Of a DNA stretch of 64,000 nucleotides, positions 47,182-58,962 are shown piece after piece. The stretch covers positions 4,803,254-4,867,253 of the forward strand of contig NZ_CP101750.1 of NCBI RefSeq assembly GCF_026810505.1. The letters are read 5' to 3'. The position numbers were made by a program, and so were the translations under genes. The notes beneath the pieces are model-generated. The model was not told the origin of the DNA, ran no database searches, and saw only the letters and a list, made by a program, of their open reading frames with translations. The stretch comes from Streptomyces sp. Je 1-369. Its GTDB lineage: Bacteria > Actinomycetota > Actinomycetes > Streptomycetales > Streptomycetaceae. Every line of letters begins with the position of its first letter. Positions within the stretch are counted from its first letter, which is position 1.

Positions 47182-47255
47182 GCCGCCTTAGCTCAGATGG
47201 CCAGAGCAACGCACTCGTAATGCGTAGGTCTCGGGTTCGAATCCCGAAGGCGGCT
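47182..47255 (+). tRNA. tRNA-Thr (anticodon CGU)
   Basis: 74 nt. Acceptor GCCGCCT (47182-47188) pairs with AGGCGGC (47248-47254); anticodon stem ACGCA/TGCGT with loop CTCGTAA gives CGU at 47216-47218; T-arm CGGGTTCGAATCCCG is intact. CCA is not encoded. A TAGACT (47138-47143) may be its -10. An intrinsic terminator follows 8 nt later. Confidence 0.97.
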
Positions 47256-47262
47256 CATCTGG

Positions 47263-47297
47263 AACCCCAGGTCAGATCCAATCTGACCTGGGGTTTT
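47263..47297 (+). terminator. tRNA-Thr intrinsic terminator
   Basis: AACCCCAGGTCAGAT / ATCTGACCTGGGGTT, 15-bp perfect stem with CCA loop, running into TTTTC. Confidence 0.93.
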
Positions 47298-47307
47298 CTG
47301 TGTTTGG

Positions 47308-48213
47308 TCAGGCGATCGGCTCGGGGACGGGGGCCGGGCGGGTGAAGGACTCGTGGCAGTGGTGGATCAGTTGGCGCAGGGCGGGGTTGTCCGTGGTGGA
47401 CCAGGCCAGGGACAGGACGGGCTCCGTGTGGATGTCCGCGATCCTGCGGGTGGTCAGGCGGGGGCGGTGCTGGGCTACCAGGGACTCGGAGAGGATGGCG
47501 ACGCCCAGGCCGCGGATCGCCAGGTCGGCGATTGCGCTGGGGGCGCCTGCCTGGAACGCGATTTCCATGTGGACGCCCGCCGCGGCGCAGGCGTCGTCGA
47601 AGACCCTGCGCACCCCGGCGCCCGTCGGGAGGCTCACCACCGAGTGGTGGGCCAGGTCTTCGAGGGTCACCGCGGGCTTTTCGCAGAGCGGGTGGCCGAT
47701 GGGCATCGCGGCCACCAGGGGCTCGCGGATGATCTCGTATGCCTCCAGGCCCGGTGGGGTGGAACCGGAGGTGCTGACCAGCGCTATGTCCGCGGTGCCC
47801 GCGCGCAGTCGCTCCAGGAGGCGGTCGGAGGTGTCTTCGAGGAGGGTGATCTCCACGCCGGGGTGCCGGTGGTGGAAGGCGGACAGCGCGTCGAAGAGCG
47901 GTGTGACCGTGCATGCCGTCACCATGCCGACCACGAGCCTGCCCCGGATCAGGCCGTTCACCTCGTCGACCGCCTGCCGCACGGCGTCCACGGCCGCCAG
48001 GGCCGAGCGCGCGTGCCGCAGTGCGGCCACTCCGGCGGGGGTGAGTCGGGTGCTGCGGCCCGAGCGGTCGAACAGCGAAGTCCCGAGGTCGTGCTCCAAC
48101 TGCCGGATCTGGGCGCTCACTCCGGACTGGCTGATGTGCACGCGCTCCGCGGCGCGAGTGAAGTTCTCCTCTTCGGCCACCGCGACGAAGTATTCGAGCT
48201 GCCTGAGTTCCAT
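47308..48213 (-). CDS. LysR-type regulator 1
   Basis: 301 residues. Winged helix MELRQLEYFVAVAEEENFTR then SQSGVSAQIRQLEHDLG, followed by a periplasmic-binding-like effector domain. About 44 of the first 61 residues are identical to the second LysR gene at 55310. ATG at 48213. Its stop lies 11 bp from the tRNA terminator, so it is the first gene of the accessory segment. GATT-CTAGT-AATC (48221-48233) just upstream may be its own site. Target unknown, plausibly the adjacent metabolite genes. Confidence 0.85.
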   Translation of the reverse strand: MELRQLEYFVAVAEEENFTRAAERVHISQSGVSAQIRQLEHDLGTSLFDRSGRSTRLTPAGVAALRHARSALAAVDAVRQAVDEVNGLIRGRLVVGMVTACTVTPLFDALSAFHHRHPGVEITLLEDTSDRLLERLRAGTADIALVSTSGSTPPGLEAYEIIREPLVAAMPIGHPLCEKPAVTLEDLAHHSVVSLPTGAGVRRVFDDACAAAGVHMEIAFQAGAPSAIADLAIRGLGVAILSESLVAQHRPRLTTRRIADIHTEPVLSLAWSTTDNPALRQLIHHCHESFTRPAPVPEPIA

Positions 48214-48609
48214 GGCTCGTGATTCTAGTAATCGGTGATGGTATTCGTTCGGCTTCTGGTCAAATTCCGCTTGAGGAGAGATGGAGGTTTGGCGGAGGGG
48301 GGTTGGGGTGTGAGTGGGGAGGTTAACTGTCAAGCTAATTGGGGAATTTGGCTTGAAAGTGTGCGAGTGTGGCGGGCGTGGCCGCTGTCACAGTGGCCCC
48401 GTGGGGTACCTGGGCGGTAATTTAAGTAAACAACTATTCCAGGTTCCGGCGTTGTCACGAGTTCCGTTTGTGCCCTGCGCGGCGTCCATTCTGCGCATTC
48501 CATGAAGCATGTTCTGGGCAATCCGGTGGGAATTATTGATTCCGCTTCGCGGGGGCGACGGTTGCGTGTCGATGCAGACAGGCGAACTCTGACAGGGGGC
48601 GACGGGTTC
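48214..48609. other. Intergenic region between LysR 1 and the StrR-like gene
   Basis: 396 bp (or 288 bp if the regulator starts at 48502). AT-richer than the flanks, e.g. around 48400-48435 (GGTAATTTAAGTAAACAAC). Likely holds both divergent promoters; no clear gene. Confidence 0.5.
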
Positions 48610-49866
48610 ATGTATGCGAGCGAGTCGACGGAAGCATGGGAAGCCGAGGAAGCCGAGGAAGCCGAGGAAGCTGCGGGAGTCGTGGCAGCGGTGGAAGCGG
48701 AAAAGAAGCCTTGGGAAATACGGCCGCATTCACTGCCGGTCGAACGGATACCCGTCGACCTCTTGTGGTCGGCCGACTCACCGCGGCTGGTCGGCGAGAA
48801 CGTCGACCACATCCGGGTCCTGGCCGAGGCCGGATCCGATCTGCCGCCGATCCTCGTCCACCGGCCGACGATGCGCGTCATCGACGGCATGCACCGCCTG
48901 CGGGCGACCGTGCTGCGCGGTGAGCGGGAGATCGCCGTCCGGTTTCTCGACGGATACGAGCCGGACGTGTTCATCGTGGCCGTCCAGGCCAACACCACCC
49001 ACGGGCTGCCCCTGACACGGGCCGACCGCAACGCCGCGGCCACCCGCATCATCCACTCCCACCCGCAGTGGTCGGACCGCATGATCGCCTCGTTCGCCGG
49101 TCTCTCGCCCAAGACGGTCGGGAGCATCCGGCGCAGGCTCGGCGACGATCTGCCCGCCGCGCCGGTGCGGATCGGGCGCGACGGCCGGACGCGGCCGGTC
49201 GACAGCAGCAGCGCACGCGCCGCCACCGGCGAGTTCATCCGGACCCACCCCGACGCGACGCTGCGGCAGATCGCCGGGGCCGCCGGAGTCTCCCGTTCCA
49301 CCGCCCGTGACGTGCGCAGGAAGTTGGAGGAGGGGGATCAGGGGCTGGGAGTGGTGGCGCGGCCGCGGCTCGTTCCCTCGCCGCATCACCAGGACGCGCC
49401 CGACCTCACAGCCATCCCCGCCCTGGGAGCGGTGGGAGCGGTGGGAGCGGTGGGGGCGATGGGAGAGAGGGGTGGCATGGGAACGGTGGGGTCTGTGGGG
49501 TCCATGCCGGTGGGAGATGCGGCGGGGAGTGCTGTGGGTGCCGTGGCTCTGACGGCCCGGATCGCCTCCGATTCCGCTGTCACATCGCCCATTTCCGCGC
49601 GGCTCAGCCCTGCGGACGCGGAGCAGAGCGTCGCCGCCGACCTCATTCCGATCCTGAAGCGGGACCCCTCCATCCGCTTCACCGACTCCGGCCGTCTGCT
49701 GCTGCGGCTCCTCGACGCGGCCACGCTGCCCCCCGACGAGTGGAACCGGCTCATCGAGAGCGTTCCGGCCCACTGCGTCGACATGGTGGCGAACGTGGCA
49801 CGCGCCTGCGGAGAGGTCTGGCTCAACGTCGCACAGGAAGTGGACAGTCGCTCCGCACAGCGGTGA
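48610..49866 (+). CDS. StrR-type ParB-domain transcriptional activator
   Basis: 418 residues. ParB/sulfiredoxin-like domain at 35-120 (SLPVERIPVDLLWSADSPRL, ILVHRPTMRVIDGMHRLRA), then two helix-turn-helix units (SDRMIASFAGLSPKTVGSI; TLRQIAGAAGVSRSTARDV). This is the StrR/NovG class of pathway-specific activators of antibiotic clusters. An acidic (EAE)n run opens the protein and (GAV)n-like low-complexity lies near 270-300; both come from DNA tandem repeats. Start at 48610 (GGGGG site) or 48502. Strong hint that the region is a biosynthetic locus. Confidence 0.85.
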   Translation: MYASESTEAWEAEEAEEAEEAAGVVAAVEAEKKPWEIRPHSLPVERIPVDLLWSADSPRLVGENVDHIRVLAEAGSDLPPILVHRPTMRVIDGMHRLRATVLRGEREIAVRFLDGYEPDVFIVAVQANTTHGLPLTRADRNAAATRIIHSHPQWSDRMIASFAGLSPKTVGSIRRRLGDDLPAAPVRIGRDGRTRPVDSSSARAATGEFIRTHPDATLRQIAGAAGVSRSTARDVRRKLEEGDQGLGVVARPRLVPSPHHQDAPDLTAIPALGAVGAVGAVGAMGERGGMGTVGSVGSMPVGDAAGSAVGAVALTARIASDSAVTSPISARLSPADAEQSVAADLIPILKRDPSIRFTDSGRLLLRLLDAATLPPDEWNRLIESVPAHCVDMVANVARACGEVWLNVAQEVDSRSAQR

Positions 49867-49909
49867 CAGCCGGGGCAACCGGCGGTAGCCGGGTGCACCG
49901 GAGGCGACT

Positions 49910-51412
49910 TCAGTCTCGTACGACCGTCTTCGTGCGCATCAGGAAATCGGAGAGGTAGCCGTCGTGCGGCAGCCCGGGCCGCATCCAGTGGGTCGGGTGG
50001 TCTCCGACGTACAGGTTGGCGATGGACGGTTCCGCCAGGAGCCCGTCGAGCAGCGGTTCCTGGTGCGTCAGCGCGGTGAGCACCAGGCTGTCGCGCAGCG
50101 GAGCGATTCCGTCCGCCGGGCGCCAGGGTGCCACCCACACACAGGGGAAGGGGAGTTCGGCGCCGAGCTGAGGGGCGTCGGCGCGGTCGAGCTGGTGGAC
50201 TGCCGGGCGCAGGACCGCGCTGCCGTCACCCAGCTCGTCCGCCACCGTGTCCGCGCCCAGCCAGGCCCGGGCCCCCGCGGCACGGCGCCCCACGTACTCC
50301 GCGAGCGCCCGGGCACCGGCGGCCGGTTGTACGGGCAGCACCGCCTTCGGGTGGTCCGGCGGGAGGCTGGGCAGCGCCGAGAACCGTTCGGCGAGCGCCT
50401 CGCACAGCGGCGTCGGGTCGCCCTCCACCAGGACGGCCGTCGTGTTCACGCAGCCCGTACCGCCGCGCCCGGCGACGGAGTCCACGATGGTGTCGAGGTG
50501 GTCGCGCCAGTCCACGTCGGCCGTCAGCAGGACCTTGGAACGGCCGGGGCCCTGGAGCAGGACGGTCGCGTCCGCGCCGTACTTGCGGACCACGTCCTCG
50601 CCGCCGTACACCAGGCCCAGATCGGCGCCCCGCAGCACGGCGTCCGCGCCCGCGTGGTCCGTGGGCAGCAGCGTGATCTCGTCGTTCCCGAAGCCCGCGA
50701 GGCGCAGCGCGGAGACGAGCCGGTGCGGCGTGAACGGCTCGCGGCGGGAGGGCCGGACCGTGACGCGGAAGCCCAGCGCGAGCGCCTCGGGCCACAGGCT
50801 GTGGGTGCCGGGGTGGTTGCCCGCCGCGTGCACGGCGAAGGTGTCGCCGCGCCGGGTGTGGACGGCCCGGCCGCTCCTGACCAGCGGGTCCCGCCAGTCG
50901 GTGACCGCGCCGGCGGGCCGTGCCTGTGCGATGCCGGTCGCGATGTCCCGGAGCCGTTCCGCGATCCGGTCGACGGCCGAGGTGACCTCCGTGAGCGGAA
51001 CGCCGCCGACGCGGCTGACCAGGAGGCGGTACTCCGCCACGCTCAGCCCGGCGACGGTGCCGGTGGCGAACAGGTCGGCCGCGGCGGCGATCCTGCGTAC
51101 CCGCTCATCGGCCGGTGCGGGGGCCGCGCGGCGGAGCGCGGAGTGGGTGCGGCTGACGAACGGCGGGGGTACGAGGCTCAGTTCGGCGGCGGGGCGGCCG
51201 GTCACGTCCGTGACCACCTGGCGGTTTCTGGCGCGGAACGCGCCGCGGGGGCCGAGCGCGTCGAGCTGCACCGGCTCCTGCACCGGCTCCTGCACCGGCT
51301 CCTGCACCGGTTTCCGCACCGGATCGCCGGTCGTGCCGTCCTGGGCGGGCGTCGGGGTGTCGGGATACGGGGTGTCGGGGTTCGGGGTCTCGGGATTCGG
51401 GGTGGATGGCAT
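49910..51412 (-). CDS. Aldehyde-dehydrogenase-fold acyl reductase (LuxC/EhpG-like)
   Basis: 500 residues. Catalytic Cys321 in GRGGTGCVNTTAVLVEG, a nucleotide-site AAGNHPGTHSLWPEALALG (Asn199), and no general ALDH Glu motif, which fits thioester-reducing LuxC-like enzymes. Upstream in the same operon is an EhpF-like adenylating enzyme; in Pantoea the EhpF/EhpG pair activates and reduces a phenazine carboxylate. Residues 5-50 are a Pro-rich low-complexity tail ((N/Y)PDTP and four PVQE repeats) not expected in the family. ATG overlaps the upstream stop (TAATG). Confidence 0.78.
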   Translation of the reverse strand: MPSTPNPETPNPDTPYPDTPTPAQDGTTGDPVRKPVQEPVQEPVQEPVQLDALGPRGAFRARNRQVVTDVTGRPAAELSLVPPPFVSRTHSALRRAAPAPADERVRRIAAAADLFATGTVAGLSVAEYRLLVSRVGGVPLTEVTSAVDRIAERLRDIATGIAQARPAGAVTDWRDPLVRSGRAVHTRRGDTFAVHAAGNHPGTHSLWPEALALGFRVTVRPSRREPFTPHRLVSALRLAGFGNDEITLLPTDHAGADAVLRGADLGLVYGGEDVVRKYGADATVLLQGPGRSKVLLTADVDWRDHLDTIVDSVAGRGGTGCVNTTAVLVEGDPTPLCEALAERFSALPSLPPDHPKAVLPVQPAAGARALAEYVGRRAAGARAWLGADTVADELGDGSAVLRPAVHQLDRADAPQLGAELPFPCVWVAPWRPADGIAPLRDSLVLTALTHQEPLLDGLLAEPSIANLYVGDHPTHWMRPGLPHDGYLSDFLMRTKTVVRD

Positions 51413-52512
51413 TAGTACACGCCCTCCACCACGTCCTCGTTCTCGAACCTGCTGACCGGCGCGATGTCGGCCACGGAGTCGCCGGGGCCGCCGTCGAGCG
51501 GCTCGACCCGCGTGGCCAGGTCGCGTTCGAGGTTGTTGGGGAGCAGGAACGACTTGCTGACGTGGCTGGCCACGACCCGGCCGCGCGCCCCGTACGGGAC
51601 CGGCCTGAGCGTCTCGGGGTCGACGACCGAGAAGGTGACGTACGGACTCAGCGTGTCGAAGACACAGGGGTCGTCGTCGCCGAGGCCGGGGCGCTCGCCC
51701 GCGAAGCCGAGGATCATCGTGCTGCCGTAGTTCCCGGAGAAGACGGTGTCGGGGAAGATCTCCGTCCGGTACACCTGGCGGGAGTCGGGGTCGAGCTGTG
51801 TGCCGCCCCAACGGATCGCCCTGACCTTCTCGTTGATGAGCTCCACGAGTTCGTCGCGGCGCGCGATCCGGTCCAGGATCGGCGGGGTGACGGTGAGGAT
51901 GCCGATGTTCTGCGAGCGCAGTACGTCCGCCGCCTGGTCTACGACGTGCTCGGCGTAGTCGTCGGCCTCGCTGCCGCGGCCCCCGGATATCAGGCGCTTC
52001 ACCCAGCGCGGGTCGAGGTCGATGGTGAATCCGTGGTTGCCGTGCGTCGTTGCCGAGCCCCGGAAGAACTCACCGACGATGTGCGGGCCGCTGGGGACGA
52101 TTCCCAGCCAGTTTGCGCCCCGCGGGAAGCCGTGGGCGTCCAGTTGCTCGCCGGTCCAGTGGAGCAGCCGTCGGCGCCAGTCGCCGTGCAGGACGACTCG
52201 TTTGGGGGCGCCGGTGGTGCCGCCGCTCTCGAACACGCCCCGTACGTCCGGGTTTTCGCCGTACCCGCGCGGGATCAGGTCCTCGGCTCGGACCTTGCGC
52301 AGTTCGGCGGCGACATTGGGGAAGCGTACGAGGTCGGCCACCGAGGAGATGTCGGTCCGCGGGTCGAAGTCCAGGGACTTCGCGCGCTCCAGCCAGTACG
52401 GGGAGCCGGTCTCGGGGCCGAAGTGCCAGTCCATCGCGGCCCTGATGTATTCGTCCGGGTCGGGCCGGACGCCGGGCGGGAGGTCGAGGATGTCCCAGGT
52501 ATTCGACGTCAT
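51412..52512 (-). CDS. EhpF/LuxE-like adenylate-forming enzyme
   Basis: 366 residues, the length of EhpF and about 100 short of a full ANL ligase: the C-terminal lid domain with the catalytic Lys is absent. The P-loop-like A3 motif is VFESGGTTGAPKRVV (~93-107), and FSGNYGSTMILGFAGE replaces the usual YGxTE. It would activate a carboxylate as acyl-AMP and hand it to the reductase next to it; the acyl substrate is unknown. ATG at 52512 overlaps the preceding gene's stop by 4 bp. Confidence 0.8.
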   Translation of the reverse strand: MTSNTWDILDLPPGVRPDPDEYIRAAMDWHFGPETGSPYWLERAKSLDFDPRTDISSVADLVRFPNVAAELRKVRAEDLIPRGYGENPDVRGVFESGGTTGAPKRVVLHGDWRRRLLHWTGEQLDAHGFPRGANWLGIVPSGPHIVGEFFRGSATTHGNHGFTIDLDPRWVKRLISGGRGSEADDYAEHVVDQAADVLRSQNIGILTVTPPILDRIARRDELVELINEKVRAIRWGGTQLDPDSRQVYRTEIFPDTVFSGNYGSTMILGFAGERPGLGDDDPCVFDTLSPYVTFSVVDPETLRPVPYGARGRVVASHVSKSFLLPNNLERDLATRVEPLDGGPGDSVADIAPVSRFENEDVVEGVY

Positions 52513-52985
52513 GTGGTTGTCGTTGTCCTTCCCGGCTTTTCGCCCGACATTTTCTCTTTTGAAGGAACCGTGGCATTGGAACCGGGGCTGTTCGGGGGTG
52601 TCAACACCGCCACGGGTGTCCCGGTGATAGCTGTCCCGGAGAACGCCGTCCCGGCGAAAGCCGGGCCCAGGGCCTGCAACGACGCCAGGTCGTGCAGTCC
52701 CTCGACCGTGCCCTCCGCCTCGAAGGTGGCGCGTATGTCCGGGGGCCGCCCGATCAGTGCGAGGGCGGCGTTCGGGGGCAGTTCGTCCAGCGGTGGCCGC
52801 TCGTCCGTCTCCCAGAGCATCACCGCGCCCCACCGGTTCTGCTCCCGGTCCGCGAAGTAGATCTTCAGCCGCAGACCGGGCACCTGGGTCCAGTGGTCGA
52901 GCGTGTGGTCGCGCAGGTGTTCGCGCATGGACTCGATGGTCTGCGGCGTGCCGTCCAGGTGCCACCAGGCGACGTCGACCCTCAT
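52509..52985 (-). CDS. ABM/YdhR-like dimeric alpha-beta-barrel protein
   Basis: 158 residues. The N-terminal ~95 residues (HWTQVPGLRLKIYFADREQ, WGAVMLWETDERPP) resemble the ferredoxin-like fold of YdhR and antibiotic-biosynthesis monooxygenases; I see no cofactor motif. The remaining ~60 residues are Ala/Gly/Thr/Pro-rich and likely disordered, ending RTTTTT. First gene of the minus-strand operon; coupled to the ligase. Could modify an aromatic ring, but this is a family-level guess. Confidence 0.6.
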   Translation of the reverse strand: MRVDVAWWHLDGTPQTIESMREHLRDHTLDHWTQVPGLRLKIYFADREQNRWGAVMLWETDERPPLDELPPNAALALIGRPPDIRATFEAEGTVEGLHDLASLQALGPAFAGTAFSGTAITGTPVAVLTPPNSPGSNATVPSKEKMSGEKPGRTTTTT

Positions 52986-53142
52986 GGCAGTGCTCGCAAG
53001 ACGTGACTGATCGTGTGCGGTGCGTAACTGGACATGGGTGCCTCCGTCTTCGGTGTGAGAGGGCGGGAGGGGAGAGGGAGGGAGCGGAGGGGCAGGGAAG
53101 CCAGTGAGCGTACGGGGCGTTCGGCCCGGACGCCGAGGTGGC

Positions 53143-53162
53143 GACTGAGGAATTCCTCAGTC
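53143..53162. promoter_or_regulatory. Perfect 20-bp palindrome, candidate operator
   Basis: GACTGAGGAATTCCTCAGTC is self-complementary with no spacer. Roughly midway between the divergent starts at 52985 and 53349, where one dimeric regulator could control both operons. A cruciform terminator is less likely because no gene ends here. Confidence 0.6.
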
Positions 53163-53252
53163 CCCCGGCAGCCGTCGGTAGCGCAGCCGTCGGTAGCGCA
53201 GTCGCCGGGAGCCCCCCGGCAGTCGTCCTGGTCCCGCGAACCAGATCTATTG

Positions 53253-53269
53253 CTTCTGGTTGCCAGAAG
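53253..53269. promoter_or_regulatory. 17-bp inverted repeat with extra half-site
   Basis: CTTCTGG-TTG-CCAGAAG; a third half-site CCAGA lies at 53241-53245. About 80 bp upstream of the SnoaL-like start. Candidate operator. Confidence 0.5.
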
Positions 53270-53348
53270 TAAGGGGAGTTGGACTTGCCAGATCCCCGCA
53301 GCCAAGCTTGACGGTGCTGGAAATCAGCTCTGAACGAGAGGCTCCCCT

Positions 53349-53711
53349 GTGTCCGAATATGAGAAGGCCTTCAAGCCGGAAGACATCACGCGGCTGTTCG
53401 TCGAGCGCGCCAACAAGGGCGACGCGACCGGCGTGGCGGAGCTCTACGCGGAGGACGCGGTGGTCGCCTTCCCGCCCGGCCAGATCACCCAGGGGCGCGA
53501 GGCCATCCGCAAGCTGTGGGAAATGGCGATGACGCGCAACCCCAAGTTCGAGCCGGAGGAGCCCCTTCCGACTCTGATCAACGGTGACATCGCGCTCACG
53601 TCCACCCCGCCGAAGGACGGCACGGGCGCGCGCGCCCAGGTCGTGCGCCGCCAGCCCGACGGTTCGTGGCTGCGCATCCTCGACCAGCCCGAATTCATCC
53701 AGCCCAAGTAA
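53349..53711 (+). CDS. SnoaL/SgcJ-like NTF2-fold protein
   Basis: 120 residues. ITRLFVERANKGDATGVAEL then YAEDAVVAFPPGQITQGREA is the opening of the ketosteroid-isomerase-like/DUF4440 (SgcJ/EcaC) fold; the C-terminal strand pair contains VVRRQPDGSWLRILDQPEF. These proteins act as cyclases, isomerases or hydrolases in antibiotic pathways, and many have unknown chemistry. GTG at 53349 with GAGAGG. Leads an operon with the exporter 22 bp downstream. Confidence 0.82.
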   Translation: MSEYEKAFKPEDITRLFVERANKGDATGVAELYAEDAVVAFPPGQITQGREAIRKLWEMAMTRNPKFEPEEPLPTLINGDIALTSTPPKDGTGARAQVVRRQPDGSWLRILDQPEFIQPK

Positions 53712-53733
53712 TCGACCCCGGGGGAGATCAGCC

Positions 53734-55302
53734 ATGGCCAAGCGGTGGTGGACGTTGGTGGTCGTCTGTGCGTCGACCTTCATGCTCCTGCTGGATGCCA
53801 CCATCGTCACGGTCGTCCTGCCGCAGATCCAGAGCGGACTCGACAGCAGCTTCGCCGACGCGCAATGGGTCGTCGACGCCTACTCGCTGACCCTCGCCGC
53901 GATGCTGCTGGTCGGCGGTTCGCTGGCCGACCGCTACGGCTACCGCAAGCTGTTCATGGTGGGCCTCGCCGTCTTCACCGTCAGCTCGCTGCTCTGCGGT
54001 ATCGCGTCCTCCCCCCTCATGCTGATCCTCTCGCGTGCCGCACAGGGCATCGGCGGATCGGTCATGTACGCCACGTCGCTGGCGCTGCTCGCCCGGACCT
54101 TCACCGGGAAGGAGCGGGGCGTCGCCTTCGGCGTCTGGGGTGCGGTGACGGGCCTGGCCTCCGGACTCGGGCCCGTCTTCGGCGGGTTGATCGCGGCCAA
54201 CATCAGCTGGCGCGGCATCTTCCTCATCAACGTTCCCCTCGGCGTCATCGCCATCCTGGTGACGCTGTGGAAGGTCGACGAGTCCCCGGCGCGGGGCAGG
54301 CTCAAGCTGGACTGGCCGGGCTTCGTCCTGTTTACCAGTGGTCTGGTCGCGCTGATCTACGGTCTGATCCGGGCCGGTGAGACGGAGTGGGGCAACACCG
54401 ACGTCGTGCTGTGGCTGGGTGCGGCCGCCGCCCTCCTGATCACCTTCCTGATCGTGGAACTCCGGTCCGCGGAACCTCTGTTCGACCTGTCGCTGTTCCG
54501 CACCCCGACGTTCGTGGGCGGCTCGATAGCCGCGTTCACCATGAACGGCTCGCTGTTCGCGATGCTCCTCTACCTGGTGCTCTACCTGCAGAACGGCCTC
54601 GGCTACTCCGTGCTCGAATCCAGCGTGCGCCTGCTGGTGATCAGCGTGTGCGCCCTGGTGGCGTCGACCGTCGCGGGACGGCTGAGCAGCAAGCTGCCGG
54701 TGAAGTGGCTGATCGGCCCCGGTCTCCTTCTCGTCGGCATCGGCCTGCTCCTCATGTCGGGGAACGACGCGTCGAGCAGCTGGACCCACCTCATCCCCGG
54801 CTTCGTCGTGGCCGGTATCGGCAGCGGCGTCGTCAACCCGCCGCTCGCCTCCACCGCCGTCGGCGTGGTCACGCCGGACCGGTCGGGCACCGCGTCGGGC
54901 ATCAACATCACCTTCCGGCAGGTCGGCATGGCCGCCAGCATCCCGATCCTCGGCTCCATCTTCACGGCGTCGCTCCACGACGACGTCCTGCGGAACCTGT
55001 CGGGCATTCCGGAGCTGGCGAGCAGCGCCCCGGGTGTCGCGGCCGCCGTCGAGCACGGCGACGTGTCGGGGCTCGGCGAGAAGGTGCCGGCGTCGATGCG
55101 GGACGAGGTCGCCACCGCGCTGCACTCCGGTTACGCGGAGGCGCTCAACGATCTGCTGATCATCACCGGTGTACTGGCCCTGGCCGGAGCGGTGTTCGCC
55201 TTCTTCCTGATCCGCACCAAGGACTTCCTGGCCGCCAAGCAGCCGCCGCAGGACGCCGGTGACGCCGGTGTCGAGGCGGGCGAGCCGCAGCCCGTGAAGT
55301 GA
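53734..55302 (+). CDS. MFS exporter, DHA2 (14-helix) family
   Basis: 522 residues with 14 predicted membrane segments. Motif A region LADRYGYRKLFM and the antiporter motif C stretch SGLGPVFGGLIAANISWRGI followed by FLINVPLG fit the DHA2 drug:H+ antiporters. Likely exports the locus product and gives self-resistance. ATG at 53734 with GGGGGAGAT. Converges on LysR 2 with a 7-bp gap and no hairpin. Confidence 0.9.
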   Translation: MAKRWWTLVVVCASTFMLLLDATIVTVVLPQIQSGLDSSFADAQWVVDAYSLTLAAMLLVGGSLADRYGYRKLFMVGLAVFTVSSLLCGIASSPLMLILSRAAQGIGGSVMYATSLALLARTFTGKERGVAFGVWGAVTGLASGLGPVFGGLIAANISWRGIFLINVPLGVIAILVTLWKVDESPARGRLKLDWPGFVLFTSGLVALIYGLIRAGETEWGNTDVVLWLGAAAALLITFLIVELRSAEPLFDLSLFRTPTFVGGSIAAFTMNGSLFAMLLYLVLYLQNGLGYSVLESSVRLLVISVCALVASTVAGRLSSKLPVKWLIGPGLLLVGIGLLLMSGNDASSSWTHLIPGFVVAGIGSGVVNPPLASTAVGVVTPDRSGTASGINITFRQVGMAASIPILGSIFTASLHDDVLRNLSGIPELASSAPGVAAAVEHGDVSGLGEKVPASMRDEVATALHSGYAEALNDLLIITGVLALAGAVFAFFLIRTKDFLAAKQPPQDAGDAGVEAGEPQPVK

Positions 55303-55309
55303 CGGCGCG

Positions 55310-56221
55310 TCAGGGTCCGGTTTCGGCAGGGGCGTTACGTTCCTGAATGCGGTGGAGCGCGTGCTGGATGACCGCCTGCGCCGCGGGATCGATCGTCCGG
55401 TCGTCGGGCCACGCCAGATATAGCCGCCCGTGCATGTCCGGGTCGCGGAACGGGATCAGTCGCAGATCCTCGCCCGCTGATCTGACCGCCCCGCGCGGCA
55501 GGATCGCCACGCCGAAACCGCGGGCGGCCATGTCCACCAGGACCTGCGGATCGCTGGCCGCGAAGGCGATGGGTGCGTCGATGCCCGCCGTGGCGAGGGA
55601 GCTGTCGAGCTGGCGCCGGGTGCCGCTGTCGCTCGGCAGCGAGAGCAGCTGACGGGGCGCCAACTCCTTGAGCAGCAGGGAATCCCGCTCGGCGTACTCG
55701 TCGTCCGAGCGCAGCACCGCGACGAGCGGGTCGGTGAGGATGACCTCCGTGCGCAGGAAGGCCGGGGGCTCGACGGCCATGCCGAGGAAGGCCATGTCGA
55801 GTTCGCCGTCCTTCAGCGCGTCGACGAGGTCGTCGGTGCTGCCCTGGCGCAGCGCCACCTCCACGGTGGGATGCTCCGCCTGGAACTCCGCGAGCATGCC
55901 GGGCACGTCGAGCGACGCCACCACCGTCACCATGCCCACGTTCACCTGCCCCCGCAGCAGCCCCGCCACCTGGTCGACCGCGAGTCTGGCGTTGCGGATC
56001 GCGGCCAGCGCGGCCTTGGCGTAGGGCAGCAGGGCCTCGCCGACGGCGGTGGGGCGGACCGTGCGTCCGGACCGGTCGAGCAGTTCGTACCCCAGTTCCC
56101 GTTCGAGTCGGCGGATCTGTGCGCTCACGCCCGGTTGTGTCACATGGACCCTGGCCGCCGCTCTGGTGAAGTTGCCGTCCTCGACGACAGCGACGAAGTA
56201 CTCGAGTTGGCGTATCTCCAT
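55310..56221 (-). CDS. LysR-type regulator 2
   Basis: 303 residues: MEIRQLEYFVAVVEDGNFTR, TQPGVSAQIRRLERELG, then a LysR substrate-binding domain. Very similar to LysR 1 at 47308, so the locus carries two related regulators at its edges. No good ribosome site before the ATG at 56221; possibly leaderless. Probably controls the APS-kinase/methyltransferase/sulfotransferase genes that read away from it. Confidence 0.87.
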   Translation of the reverse strand: MEIRQLEYFVAVVEDGNFTRAAARVHVTQPGVSAQIRRLERELGYELLDRSGRTVRPTAVGEALLPYAKAALAAIRNARLAVDQVAGLLRGQVNVGMVTVVASLDVPGMLAEFQAEHPTVEVALRQGSTDDLVDALKDGELDMAFLGMAVEPPAFLRTEVILTDPLVAVLRSDDEYAERDSLLLKELAPRQLLSLPSDSGTRRQLDSSLATAGIDAPIAFAASDPQVLVDMAARGFGVAILPRGAVRSAGEDLRLIPFRDPDMHGRLYLAWPDDRTIDPAAQAVIQHALHRIQERNAPAETGP

Positions 56222-56544
56222 AACTGACCGATCTAGGCTTCAGTACGAACAGATATTGGACGCCCGGTAAACGCCGGGACAATACTGACGGGGTCGCTCG
56301 ATCAGTGTCCGCTCGATCGGTGTCCGCTCGACCGAGTGGAACGCCGGAAAGAGCGACCATTCAACGGCGCATTCAACGGCCAGACAGTGGCCTTTTTTCA
56401 CGGGGATACTCGAGATTTTCCGAGTAATGCATGCTGAATTTACGTGCCAAAATTTTCTGAGGAACTTTACAGCAGTGAAGTCGTGCTGTGAAGAGTCCGC
56501 CTGCGCCGAGCGGGCCACCGTACGTCCACTGAGGGGAGCCATCC
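56222..56544. other. Divergent region upstream of the sulfation operon
   Basis: 323 bp, notably AT-rich near 56380-56470. Contains a 17-bp tandem repeat GTGTCCGCTCGATCGGT / GTGTCCGCTCGACCGAG near 56304-56337, the inverted repeat at 56407-56426 and ATCT-N16-AGAT (56231-56254) near the LysR 2 start. No gene recognised. Confidence 0.55.
56407..56426. promoter_or_regulatory. Inverted repeat, candidate operator
   Basis: TACTCG-AGATTTTC-CGAGTA: 6-bp arms with 8-bp AT-rich spacer, 119 bp upstream of the APS-kinase-like ATG. Confidence 0.4.
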
Positions 56545-57102
56545 ATGGGAACCACGGGAGTTGGAGGCGCCGATTCCGGCGGGGCGGTCATCTGGGTGAC
56601 CGGGCTTGCCGAGGCCGGCAAGACGACGGTCGCCCGCGAACTGGTCCGCCAACTGCTCCAGCGCGGTCGGCAGCCGATTCTGCTCGACGGCAACGAGGTG
56701 CGGACCGCGTTGGGCATGATGACCTCCGGATTCGACCGTGAAAGCCGGATAAAGACATCCATGACCTACGCGCGACTGTCCCAACTGCTCGCGGAACAGG
56801 GACATCTCGTGGTCGTCGCGACCATCTCGCTCTTCCACGAGGTGCAGCGGCACAACCGGGAGAACCAGCCCGACTACTTCGAGGTGCTGCTCGACGTGCC
56901 CGTCGCGGAACTCAAGCGACGGGACAGCAAGGGCATCTACAGCGAGAACGACGACAAGGACGTGGTCGGAATCGGGCAGTCCGCCGAGTTCCCGACCGAT
57001 CCCGATCTCGTGGTCACCAACTACGGGGATGTCGATCCGAAGGCCGCGGCCACCATGATTCGACTCGCGCACGAGCAGCGTTTGCCGTCCGCCGTGGCAT
57101 GA
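56545..57102 (+). CDS. Adenylylsulfate-kinase-like protein
   Basis: 185 residues, the usual APS kinase length. P-loop GLAEAGKTT (20-28; typical GLSGSGKST), LLDGNEVRTALG (48; usually DGDNVR, so the second Asp is Asn), ATISLF (91-97; canonical ISP/Ser kept) and RRDSKGIY (126-132; canonical RDPKGLY). Predicted to phosphorylate APS to PAPS, which the sulfotransferase two genes downstream would consume. The changed motifs leave room for a different substrate. ATG at 56545 with GAGGGGAG. Confidence 0.78.
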   Translation: MGTTGVGGADSGGAVIWVTGLAEAGKTTVARELVRQLLQRGRQPILLDGNEVRTALGMMTSGFDRESRIKTSMTYARLSQLLAEQGHLVVVATISLFHEVQRHNRENQPDYFEVLLDVPVAELKRRDSKGIYSENDDKDVVGIGQSAEFPTDPDLVVTNYGDVDPKAAATMIRLAHEQRLPSAVA

Positions 57103-57193
57103 GGCACGAATTCAAAGGGCTCATGGAGCCCCACCAGGCTTTCACGGTTATCGATTCAGCTTTTCAGCGAACATATAAGGAGCTGTGCCTCGC

Positions 57194-57985
57194 ATGACGA
57201 CGACTTCGACCAAGCTCAAGCACGGAGACTTCACCGACCTGGCGAAGGACTACTCGAAGTACCGCGAGGGTTACGCGACCTCGGTGCGGGACGCGCTGAT
57301 CGGCCTGGTGGGCCGCCCGGCCGCCGAGCTCGACGCCGTCGACGTCGGCGCCGGCACGGGCCTGTGGACCCGCATCGTGGCGGACGGCGGATTCCGCTCG
57401 GTCACCGCGGTCGAGCCGAACGACAACATGCGCGCCGAGGGCATCTCGGACTCCGAGGGCTACTCGATCACCTGGCGCAAGGGCCAGGGCGAGCAGACCG
57501 GACTCGCCGACGGGTCGGCCGACCTCATCAGCATGGCGTCGTCCTTCCACTGGGTCGACTTCGAGGTGGGCACCGCCGAGTTCTGCCGTGTCCTGCGTCC
57601 CGGCGGCTGGTTCGTCGCGCTCTACAACCCGCGGCTGATCGAGGTCAACCCGGTGCTCGTGGACATCGAGAACGAGCTCAAGCGCCTGATGGGCGAGCGC
57701 AAGCGGATCACCTCCGCCCACCCGCAGATGATCAAGGAGCTGTCGGACAAGTTCAACGCCAGCCCGCGCTTCGACGACGTCGTCGTGCTGGAGGGCAGGC
57801 ACTCCGTCGAGCAGAGCATCGACCACTACATCGGCCTGTGGCAGTCGGTGAACGACGTGCGGGTGCAGCTCGGCGTCGACAAGTTCGAGCAGTTCCTCGA
57901 CTACATCCGCGAGCGCCTCGCCGACGCGCAGAAGCTTGAGGTCACCTACCTGACCAGGGCGGTCGCGGCGCGCGCCAAGAAGTGA
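57194..57985 (+). CDS. SAM-dependent class I methyltransferase
   Basis: 263 residues. Motif I AVDVGAGTGLWTRI (48-61), acidic TAVEPNDNM, and SSFHWVDFEVGTAEF with VLRPGGWFVALYNP, the small-molecule methyltransferase (Methyltransf_11) type. AAGGAG lies 11 nt before the ATG at 57194; the GTG at 57185 is too close to it. Probable O- or N-methylation of the product. 91 bp after the kinase-like gene, same operon. Confidence 0.85.
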   Translation: MTTTSTKLKHGDFTDLAKDYSKYREGYATSVRDALIGLVGRPAAELDAVDVGAGTGLWTRIVADGGFRSVTAVEPNDNMRAEGISDSEGYSITWRKGQGEQTGLADGSADLISMASSFHWVDFEVGTAEFCRVLRPGGWFVALYNPRLIEVNPVLVDIENELKRLMGERKRITSAHPQMIKELSDKFNASPRFDDVVVLEGRHSVEQSIDHYIGLWQSVNDVRVQLGVDKFEQFLDYIRERLADAQKLEVTYLTRAVAARAKK

Positions 57986-58056
57986 CCCGCCACCGCTCCG
58001 GCTCCGCACCGACGCCTTCGGCCGTGGGGCCGCGGGGGAGAGACAGGACTTCCGAC

Positions 58057-58962
58057 ATGACCGAGGACTCCGCCCGGGAACTGCGTCCGGACGAACTGGC
58101 CCGGCGCAGTGCGCGACTGCTGGGCGAGCACGACATCGTCGTGGCAGGTGACCCGGGCTCCGGGCAGGCGCTCGTGGCCAACATCGTGTTCGAGCTCGGC
58201 TTCGACTACCTCGACCCGTACGTCGAGCCGCCCCAAGAGGCCGACGGTGTGTCGCAGTCGGTGGAGGACCGTCTCGACTACTACCGGCAGCGTCTTGCGG
58301 CCACGTCCGAGAAGAGCCAGGCGGCTCTGGACAGGGCGGCGAGCGGGGCCGTCGCCAAGAGGTTCATCAAGACGCACTTCTACCCGGAGGTGTTCGCGGA
58401 GTCCTCGGTGAACACCGCGATCCTGGTGGTGCGGGACCCGCGCGACACCATCTACTCGTCGTACAAGTGGTTCTCCTCCTTCGGCGGCTCCTGGATACCG
58501 GACGCCGCGGACATGATCGGGAAGCTCACCTACCCCGACTTCCTCGACCGCGTCAGGCTCGGGGACGGGGAGCCCTCGATCCCGGGCTGGGCCCGCTTCT
58601 ACCGGAGCTGGCTCGAAGCGGCGCCGGACTTCTCGAAGTTCGCCGTCGTACGGTTCGAGGACCTGAAGTCCCACCCCGTGGGCGCCATCACCGCCATGCT
58701 CGCGGCCCTGGGGCTCGCGGTGCCGCCCGAGGTGGTCGAGCAGGCGGCCGAGCGCAGCTCCTTCAAGGCGATGCGGGCCCGTGAGGACGCGGCGTCCGCG
58801 GGTGAGGGCGACACCACCAAGAACGCGCGCATCATGCGGCGCGGTCAGGTGGGGGAGTGGCGCGAGTGGATCGGGGAGGGCGACCTGCGGGAACGCTTCG
58901 CCCACCCGGGTCTGGTCGATATGGCGGCGCGCTTCGGGTACGACGCGACGCCGACGCGGTAG
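58057..58962 (+). CDS. PAPS-dependent sulfotransferase
   Basis: 301 residues. 5'-phosphosulfate loop VVAGDPGSGQALVANIV (28-44), catalytic-His motif KTHFYP (His107), 3'-phosphate motif RDPRDTIYSSY (126-136) and the C-terminal cap loop RRGQVGEWREW, matching RKGxxGDWK of cytosolic sulfotransferases. Transfers sulfate from PAPS to a hydroxyl or amine. ATG at 58057 preferred; a GTG at 57982 overlapping the previous stop would add a basic 25-residue leader. Followed by a strong terminator, so last gene of the locus. Confidence 0.88.
   Translation: MTEDSARELRPDELARRSARLLGEHDIVVAGDPGSGQALVANIVFELGFDYLDPYVEPPQEADGVSQSVEDRLDYYRQRLAATSEKSQAALDRAASGAVAKRFIKTHFYPEVFAESSVNTAILVVRDPRDTIYSSYKWFSSFGGSWIPDAADMIGKLTYPDFLDRVRLGDGEPSIPGWARFYRSWLEAAPDFSKFAVVRFEDLKSHPVGAITAMLAALGLAVPPEVVEQAAERSSFKAMRAREDAASAGEGDTTKNARIMRRGQVGEWREWIGEGDLRERFAHPGLVDMAARFGYDATPTR

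Follow-up and report, generated by a model that had tools for sequence, protein, structure and literature searches.

A candidate phenazine-tailoring locus with a sulfotransferase-fold and kinase pair of altered donor sites beside a tRNA-Thr gene of Streptomyces sp. Je 1-369

The 64,000-nt stretch of the Streptomyces sp. Je 1-369 chromosome analysed here (the window; coordinates count from its first letter) holds a compact locus between a tRNA-Thr(CGT) gene and a hairpin, in which the gene order is LysR1(-), StrR/ParB-like(+), EhpG-like(-), EhpF-like(-), ABM(-), SnoaL-like(+), major facilitator superfamily (MFS) exporter(+), LysR2(-), adenosine 5'-phosphosulfate (APS)-kinase-fold enzyme(+), methyltransferase(+) and sulfotransferase-fold enzyme(+). 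Long open reading frames (ORFs) are present for all the named genes (Table 1), and the gene set that a first-pass annotation of this DNA had placed beside the tRNA is real: families were matched for both LysR regulators, Aldedh, AMP-binding, ABM, SnoaL_2, DHA2 MFS, APS_kinase, Methyltransf_11 and Sulfotransfer_1. Two of its details have to be amended. The terminator that it drew at the far end is indeed a hairpin, with a stem of 20 bp and not 19, and its 'StrR-type activator' is a helix-turn-helix (HTH)-like gene for which the StrR family is unsupported, no Pfam family scoring above its cut-off and the HTH matches being weak at most. We presume a likeness of this regulator to StrR/ParB, which the sequence searches did not confirm; a homologue with 39-40% identity adjoins the EhpF and EhpG genes of genome G109 (L067/L093). 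The ABM and EhpF-like genes overlap by 4 bases, and the start of the EhpG-like gene overlaps the EhpF-like stop by 1 base; hence, these three genes probably form one operon.

Table 1. Features of the locus, in window coordinates, with the matches on which the assignments rest
Feature	Position	Strand	Basis or remark
tRNA-Thr (CGT)	47182..47256	+	ARAGORN; Rfam tRNA 69.5 bits
Hairpin terminator 3' of tRNA-Thr	47261..47297	+	
LysR-family regulator 1	47308..48213	-	Pfam LysR_substrate + HTH_1; ATG at 48213 taken as start among possible starts
Putative StrR/ParB-like HTH regulator	48502..49866	+	Weak HTH matches
EhpG-like aldehyde-dehydrogenase-fold reductase (predicted)	49910..51412	-	Pfam Aldedh 41.3 bits; homologue beside EhpF in relatives' loci
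EhpF-like adenylating enzyme (predicted aromatic carboxylate activation)	51412..52512	-	AMP-binding; PDB EhpF 3l2k/3hgu 266.7 bits
NosA-like ABM protein	52509..52985	-	PDB NosA 4za1, 55 bits; family found in phenazine operons
SnoaL-like protein	53349..53711	+	Pfam SnoaL_2 40.8 bits; TIGR02246 38.2 bits
DHA2-family MFS exporter (predicted)	53734..55302	+	TIGR00711 264.7 bits, cut-off 230.2
LysR-family regulator 2	55310..56221	-	Pfam match
APS-kinase-fold 3'-nucleotide kinase (predicted), PRK05541 type, DGN motif	56545..57102	+	Pfam APS_kinase; PRK05541 159.5
S-adenosylmethionine (SAM) methyltransferase	57185..57985	+	Methyltransf_11
Sulfotransferase-fold transferase	58057..58962	+	Pfam Sulfotransfer_1; alternative start GTG 57982
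Perfect 20-bp inverted repeat, 6-nt loop	58998-59017/59024-59043		End of locus

The grouping of these genes is more than chance, given its conservation in Streptomyces atriruber NRRL B-24165 (L032/L065), where gene content and order are identical and the proteins are 90-98% identical (78% for the StrR-like regulator); its locus lies on a contig of 15.5 kb that breaks off in the StrR-like gene, and LysR1 would fall past the contig end. Between the two strains, the ratio of nonsynonymous to synonymous substitution rates (dN/dS), calculated for 10 locus genes with LysR1 left out, ranges from 0.02 (SnoaL) to 0.30 (StrR-like), with 0.05 for the kinase and 0.10 for the transferase. Pfam and homology searches found none of the phenazine core genes phzB-G within the window. 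As the first-pass annotation had it, this is a coherent tailoring locus that contains no core gene and extends from a tRNA to a hairpin.

The locus probably acts on an aromatic acid. Its EhpF-like protein matches the crystallised EhpF over positions 18-366 of its 366 residues, and homologues at an E-value of 1e-20 occur in 114 of 392 genomes of the genus. The neighbouring dehydrogenase is named EhpG because its gene is linked to EhpF, both Pfam and the PDB showing aldehyde dehydrogenases only (in the PDB, a general aldehyde dehydrogenase at 30.4 bits). For the ABM protein, the Pfam ydhR match (14.2 bits) is below the cut-off; several phenazine operons of actinomycetes have an ABM/NosA-like gene placed between PhzE and PhzF (e.g., L046:3722 and L097:12094).

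In 22 Streptomyces genomes besides our own strain and S. atriruber, the genomic neighbourhoods of EhpF homologues divide by identity: at least two phz core genes are on the same contig in all 14 neighbourhoods with an EhpF of at least 65% identity (within the first stretch fetched in 10, with a second stretch needed for G002, G227, G234 and G124), and none were seen in the first stretch of the eight with an EhpF at 61-62%. This count leaves out other EhpF hits, such as those of G085, G055 and G317. A fairer comparison than the fetched neighbourhoods is the genome-wide presence of PhzG above its family cut-off, which holds for 12 of the 14 genomes in the first group (the exceptions being G109, with 269.7 against a cut-off of 270, and G361), none of the eight in the second and 43 of all 392. 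In a named collection of 17 EhpF loci, of which L033 repeats the G309 locus and L032 is that of S. atriruber, phz genes are present at L034, L035, L037, L038 and L046; none were detected at L040, L041, L042, L044, L045 and L048, whose EhpF homologues are 50-63% identical, and L043 comprises just 3 kb. A 38-row tree of EhpF proteins places the window member in a 22-row clade (support 85/98) composed of 18 phenazine-linked loci, two PhzD/PhzE loci, the window and S. atriruber, with the phz label requiring three changes over the tree.

The first-pass annotation had suggested a search for partner core genes across the genome, and a phenazine core is indeed found elsewhere in this chromosome, being complete when summed over sites: B, C, D, E and G near the left end and F at 7.31 Mb. 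PhzE occurs twice, at 107,021 and 8,710,847 of the 8.82-Mb contig, in 5,160-base stretches that are identical to each other. Likewise identical are a pair of 3,453-base stretches closer to the chromosome ends, each including an APS kinase; these identical end stretches fit terminal inverted repeats. At the right end, PhzE/PhzG lie at 8710847-8713796. The cluster was read at the left end only (L060, 97000-116900), where two copies of PHZA_PHZB, a class-II 3-deoxy-D-arabino-heptulosonate 7-phosphate (DAHP) synthase, an isochorismatase, PhzE (chorismate binding plus glutamine amidotransferase) and PhzG, the last scoring above its cut-off, are encoded. It also encodes two aromatic prenyltransferases, an O-methyltransferase and a flavin mononucleotide (FMN) reductase and is thus of the prenylated-phenazine type; PhzF and ABM were not found in it. 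The phzF gene lies at ~7.31 Mb, accompanied by a second phzG and a second phzB (L062:9374-11424), and over 1,169 bases the PhzG-PhzB stretch there shares 99.7% identity with that of the chromosome-end site. A second EhpF-like gene, with 39% identity to that of the window, is found at 7576416-7577462 (L061), with no phz match in 20 kb.

Because the EhpF of the window belongs to a phenazine-linked clade and the core is encoded elsewhere in the genome, we consider it moderately probable that this is a detached phenazine-tailoring locus, whose core is made from other parts of the chromosome. ABM, EhpF and EhpG would then jointly convert the carboxylate of that phenazine to an aldehyde. The first-pass annotation had proposed 'a small aromatic acid or an unknown scaffold'; the aromatic acid is supported, and EhpF/EhpG, ABM and the remote core make the scaffold probably a phenazine instead of an unknown one.

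The second part of the locus was described as serving sulfation, and here both enzymes are present with altered residues. The kinase passes the PRK05541 model (159.5, cut-off 127) and fails TIGR00455 apsK (97.3, cut-off 138.7), on which two separate true APS kinases of the same genome, the CysC proteins of L110 and L113, score 193.6 and 191.3. NCBIfam describes PRK05541 itself as an adenylyl-sulfate kinase. Among 92 kinase homologues, six are named 'cytidine diphosphoramidate kinase' in their source, including one with 70% identity (P0124), and they are outnumbered by those named adenylyl-sulfate or adenylylsulfate kinase(-like). DGN replaces DGD in 19 of the first 22 homologues (P0119-P0140). 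An FTG lid string was dropped as a mark of APS kinases, as it is absent in all 92 homologues but equally in three CysC rows from the genome itself. Relatives of the kinase at an E-value of 1e-27 were found across the class in one of 384 genomes, namely its own, a cut too strict for relatives as distant as those in L087 and L088 (below). Contig sizes of 21492, 26810 and 418717 are common to the sources of the kinase and transferase homologues; hence, the pair may travel together.

The transferase matches Pfam Sulfotransfer_1 (PF00685, 75.9 bits), and a structure model matches the sulfotransferase fold. In 59 aligned rows of its subfamily, the Lys of the 5'-phosphosulfate loop (YPKSG) that serves 3'-phosphoadenosine 5'-phosphosulfate (PAPS), placed by alignment to 1hy3, is found in none, G, A or S occupying the position in 58 and a gap in one. 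The 3'-phosphate site is retained, with R/S in 59 of 59 rows and RRGxxGEW (pattern RxGxxGxW) in 51. In the nearest homologues (P0001-P0031), GDPG-type loops replace YPGS. The donor of this subfamily, annotated as 'sulfotransferase', thus appears doubtful from its residues, and the 'sulfated' of the first-pass annotation is right about the presence of a kinase and a transferase and doubtful as to the group, given the altered subfamilies and distant relatives near what resembles a CDP (cytidine diphosphate)-phosphoramidate pathway. Neither is plain PAPS sulfation accepted here as settled, the loop residue and the kinase scores speaking otherwise. Homologues of the transferase at an E-value of 1e-12 occur in eight of 392 genomes of the genus, near-identical in two (its own genome and S. 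atriruber), and a protein search, with scoring limited to the 7,996 candidates that had most words in common, brings in other Streptomyces whose homologues are 84-91% identical. Methyltransferase homologues (59-69%) adjoin the transferase in L122 and L123, which have methyltransferase, MFS and transferase and, in the sequence examined, no kinase or glutamine kinase; L089 has transferase and MFS only. At L123:7689-8341 the methyltransferase homologue matches as two pieces, and the gene is perhaps broken.

Fuller relatives are found in L087 (G069) and L088 (G158), where distant homologues of the transferase and kinase occur with a PRK05849 protein, a C26 hydrolase, a nucleoside triphosphate (NTP) transferase and a methyltransferase. 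The PRK05849 phosphoenolpyruvate (PEP)-utilising kinases score 770 (L087) and 755 (L088) against a cut-off of 501, and the best NCBIfam match of the C26 hydrolase, determined for L087 only, is gamma-glutamyl-CDP-amidate hydrolase (93.9 bits, below the cut-off of 250). According to the consulted text of PMC11800397, Cj1415-Cj1418 of Campylobacter jejuni make CDP-phosphoramidate 3'-phosphate, and the subsequent transfer was assigned to Cj1421/Cj1422 through gene deletion; Cj1418 was formerly taken for PEP synthase or pyruvate phosphate dikinase (PPDK) (PMC10971088). PRK05849 would be the Cj1418 family, and the other genes of L087 and L088 could be assigned step by step to that route. No enzyme assay of such a phosphoramidate transferase was found in the text consulted, and among the papers listed by the literature search none gave a precedent for phosphoramidate transfer by a sulfotransferase fold. 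L087:9809-18259 encodes what may be a complete CDP-phosphoramidate pathway, together with two methyltransferases and a ketosynthase domain that shares a reading frame with the transferase, and a P-N natural product is possible for this cluster; L088:9229-17043 has transferase, MFS, NTP transferase, C26 hydrolase, methyltransferase, kinase and PRK05849. The window kinase has DGN where those of L087 and L088 have DGD, and the kinase tree does not group it specifically with these two. In the genome of Je 1-369, the L087 glutamine-kinase-like query gave 28 bits at best, in a PEP-utilising domain, and the places with PF01326 were unmatched by the L087/L088 proteins at the thresholds used; the best of the weak cytidylyltransferase matches reached 33.6 bits. 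At the sensitivity used, searches for the glutamine kinase and cytidylyltransferase thus did not recover the set of the CDP-phosphoramidate pathway in this genome, and with no glutamine kinase found, plain phosphoramidate transfer was not accepted as settled either.

On the phenazine reading, the following route may be envisaged. Phenazine-1,6-dicarboxylic acid (PDC) or phenazine-1-carboxylic acid (PCA) would come from phzB, C, D, E and G, located towards the chromosome ends, together with phzF at 7.31 Mb. EhpF would adenylate the phenazine carboxylate, which EhpG would reduce to an aldehyde; the ABM and SnoaL-like proteins would assist ring or side-chain chemistry. The kinase is predicted to produce a 3'-phosphorylated nucleotide donor, whose 5' group the sulfotransferase-fold enzyme would shift to a phenazine hydroxyl, and the methyltransferase may cap the scaffold or the transferred group. 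The MFS pump would export the product under control of the StrR-like and LysR regulators. As the transferred group we slightly prefer sulfate, with phosphoramidate as a serious rival: true APS kinases are encoded in the genome, whereas the search for a glutamine kinase of the CDP-phosphoramidate type found none.

Several points weigh against this route. The core is unlinked, lying ~4.7 and 3.9 Mb (the two ends) and 2.5 Mb (phzF) from the locus, and the end cluster, which has prenyltransferases and an O-methyltransferase of its own, may complete a product independently of the window locus. Four of the 14 neighbourhood linkages needed extra DNA, by which the eight lower-identity neighbourhoods were not likewise extended; L036 and L039 show PhzD/PhzE-like genes alone, and L047 has no phz genes in 14 kb. 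The support of the EhpF clade is under the starred level, and the phenazine-linked G361 sits outside it. The substrate could accordingly be a non-phenazine aromatic acid, with the phenazine ancestry of EhpF a mere matter of history. GriC and GriD of grixazone, for instance, act on an aminohydroxybenzoate-type acid. The unlinked core, the eight of eight stretches without phz genes around 61-62% EhpF homologues and the 39% paralogue at 7.58 Mb are in keeping with such a substrate; yet the tree places the window EhpF inside the phenazine-linked clade, the family of its ABM partner sits within phenazine operons, and the genome does have a phz core, and we regard this alternative as unlikely. The grixazone-type substrate in particular is disfavoured by the EhpF tree. 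A locus in decay, left over from a phenazine cluster acquired at a variable tRNA site and yielding no product, would suit the missing core, the variability of the site (below) and the altered residues in kinase and transferase. However, the ORFs are open, the dN/dS values are low (0.02-0.30 in the 10 genes), and the altered residues are common to whole subfamilies and thus not decay, which makes a remnant highly improbable.

As for the transferred group, it is possible, though not probable, that a phosphoramidoyl-type group takes the place of sulfate: the kinase would act on the 3'-OH of a CDP-phosphoramidate-like nucleotide, the transferase would move the 5' group, and the methyltransferase may O-methylate it. 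Methyl phosphoramidate occurs on the Campylobacter capsule. The pass on PRK05541 with failure on apsK, the reverse of the two CysC proteins, points this way, as do the naming of P0124 and five other homologues, the PAPS-loop Lys missing from all 59 transferase rows (one being a gap) and the company that the pair keeps in L087 and L088, together with the 3'-phosphorylated product of Cj1415-Cj1418 (PMC11800397). Against it stand the lack of any glutamine kinase match beyond 28 bits or cytidylyltransferase match beyond 33.6 bits in the genome, the NCBIfam description of PRK05541 and the commoner naming that agrees with it, the transferase and methyltransferase of L122/L123 without a kinase or glutamine kinase in the sequence examined, and the DGN motif and tree position that set the window kinase apart from those of L087 and L088.

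In a speculative extension, held only tentatively, the Lys-less sulfotransferase-fold enzymes and PRK05541-type kinases would constitute a separate group-transfer system in the secondary metabolism of actinomycetes. Its donor would be a 3'-phosphonucleotide different from PAPS (for L087/L088, CDP-phosphoramidate 3'-phosphate is probable), and its acceptor here would be a phenazine aldehyde that the chromosome-end core provides in trans. If so, a sulfotransferase-fold family encoded next to CDP-phosphoramidate synthesis would offer a transferase candidate open to direct testing, and a phenazine pathway would be distributed among three kinds of chromosomal site and thus escape genome mining of single loci. 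The parts are of known kinds; what is new is the combination of remote phenazine tailoring with a sulfotransferase/kinase pair of altered donor sites.

Our searches turned up no homologous cluster with a known product, which the first-pass annotation had named as counting against it. Among the characterised systems found, the lomofungin cluster of S. lomondensis comes closest to part of the locus. Lomofungin is a formyl phenazine derived from PDC, and its locus has an EsmB1-like gene, lomo15, a candidate counterpart of EhpF, adjoining an aldehyde dehydrogenase gene, lomo16, along with a methyltransferase, a transporter and regulators, as in the window; unlike the window, it has the phz core inside, and its Table 3 lists no sulfotransferase or APS-kinase-type gene (PMC4549113). 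The ehp operon for D-alanylgriseoluteic acid in Enterobacter (Pantoea) agglomerans Eh1087 shares the EhpF-type adenylating enzyme, which the consulted part of the source has acting after PDC (PMC3175449). Unlike the window, that operon (ehpA-O) includes the core. To our knowledge, it has no sulfotransferase/kinase pair. The distribution of genes over several loci is paralleled in Streptomyces sp. S4.7, where a phz cluster without phzF gives PDC using phzF from elsewhere and where the mfq and second phenazine clusters likewise involve aromatic prenyltransferases; in contrast to our genome, the split affects the core, and the words 'sulfotransferase' and 'aldehyde' are absent from the paper's text (PMC12814520). 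The C. jejuni CDP-phosphoramidate pathway resembles the window in its 3'-nucleotide kinase step, L087 and L088 holding the other domain types too (PMC11800397, consulted text), and differs in that our genome lacks a detectable glutamine kinase, the acceptor would be a small molecule, and the transfer enzyme has a sulfotransferase fold. From the PAPS-dependent Teg12/StaL and SULTs, the window subfamily differs by the missing YPKSG-loop Lys in the aligned rows. Ascamycin, with an APS kinase and a sulfotransferase, was set aside as a model, as its cluster has sulfate adenylyltransferase genes according to the consulted text (PMC4257720) and the window locus does not. The literature search, judged by title and abstract start, found no sulfated phenazine clusters, and in the main text of a phenazine review (PMC11477647) words that start with sulfo, sulfate or phosphoramid are absent.

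At the tRNA end, the upstream hydrolase gene is shared by 17 other relatives; sequence was taken from 10 of them, one being just 2.9 kb long, and nine were compared (L077, L079-L086), leaving out blastn matches of <150 bases. All nine have the tRNA-Thr, and their match to the window spans the hydrolase gene and the tRNA and then stops, reaching 47292-47301 (terminator included) in seven and ending at 47256 in L077 and L085. The DNA 3' of tRNA-Thr(CGT) is unlike that of the window in all nine. An integrative element is disfavoured, as no att-like repeat of the tRNA 3' end longer than 12 nt occurs within the window; no integrase is found among the window genes between the tRNA and the hairpin. 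L080 and L082 have ~1.7 kb more in common with each other, so the site is variable without being different in every case.

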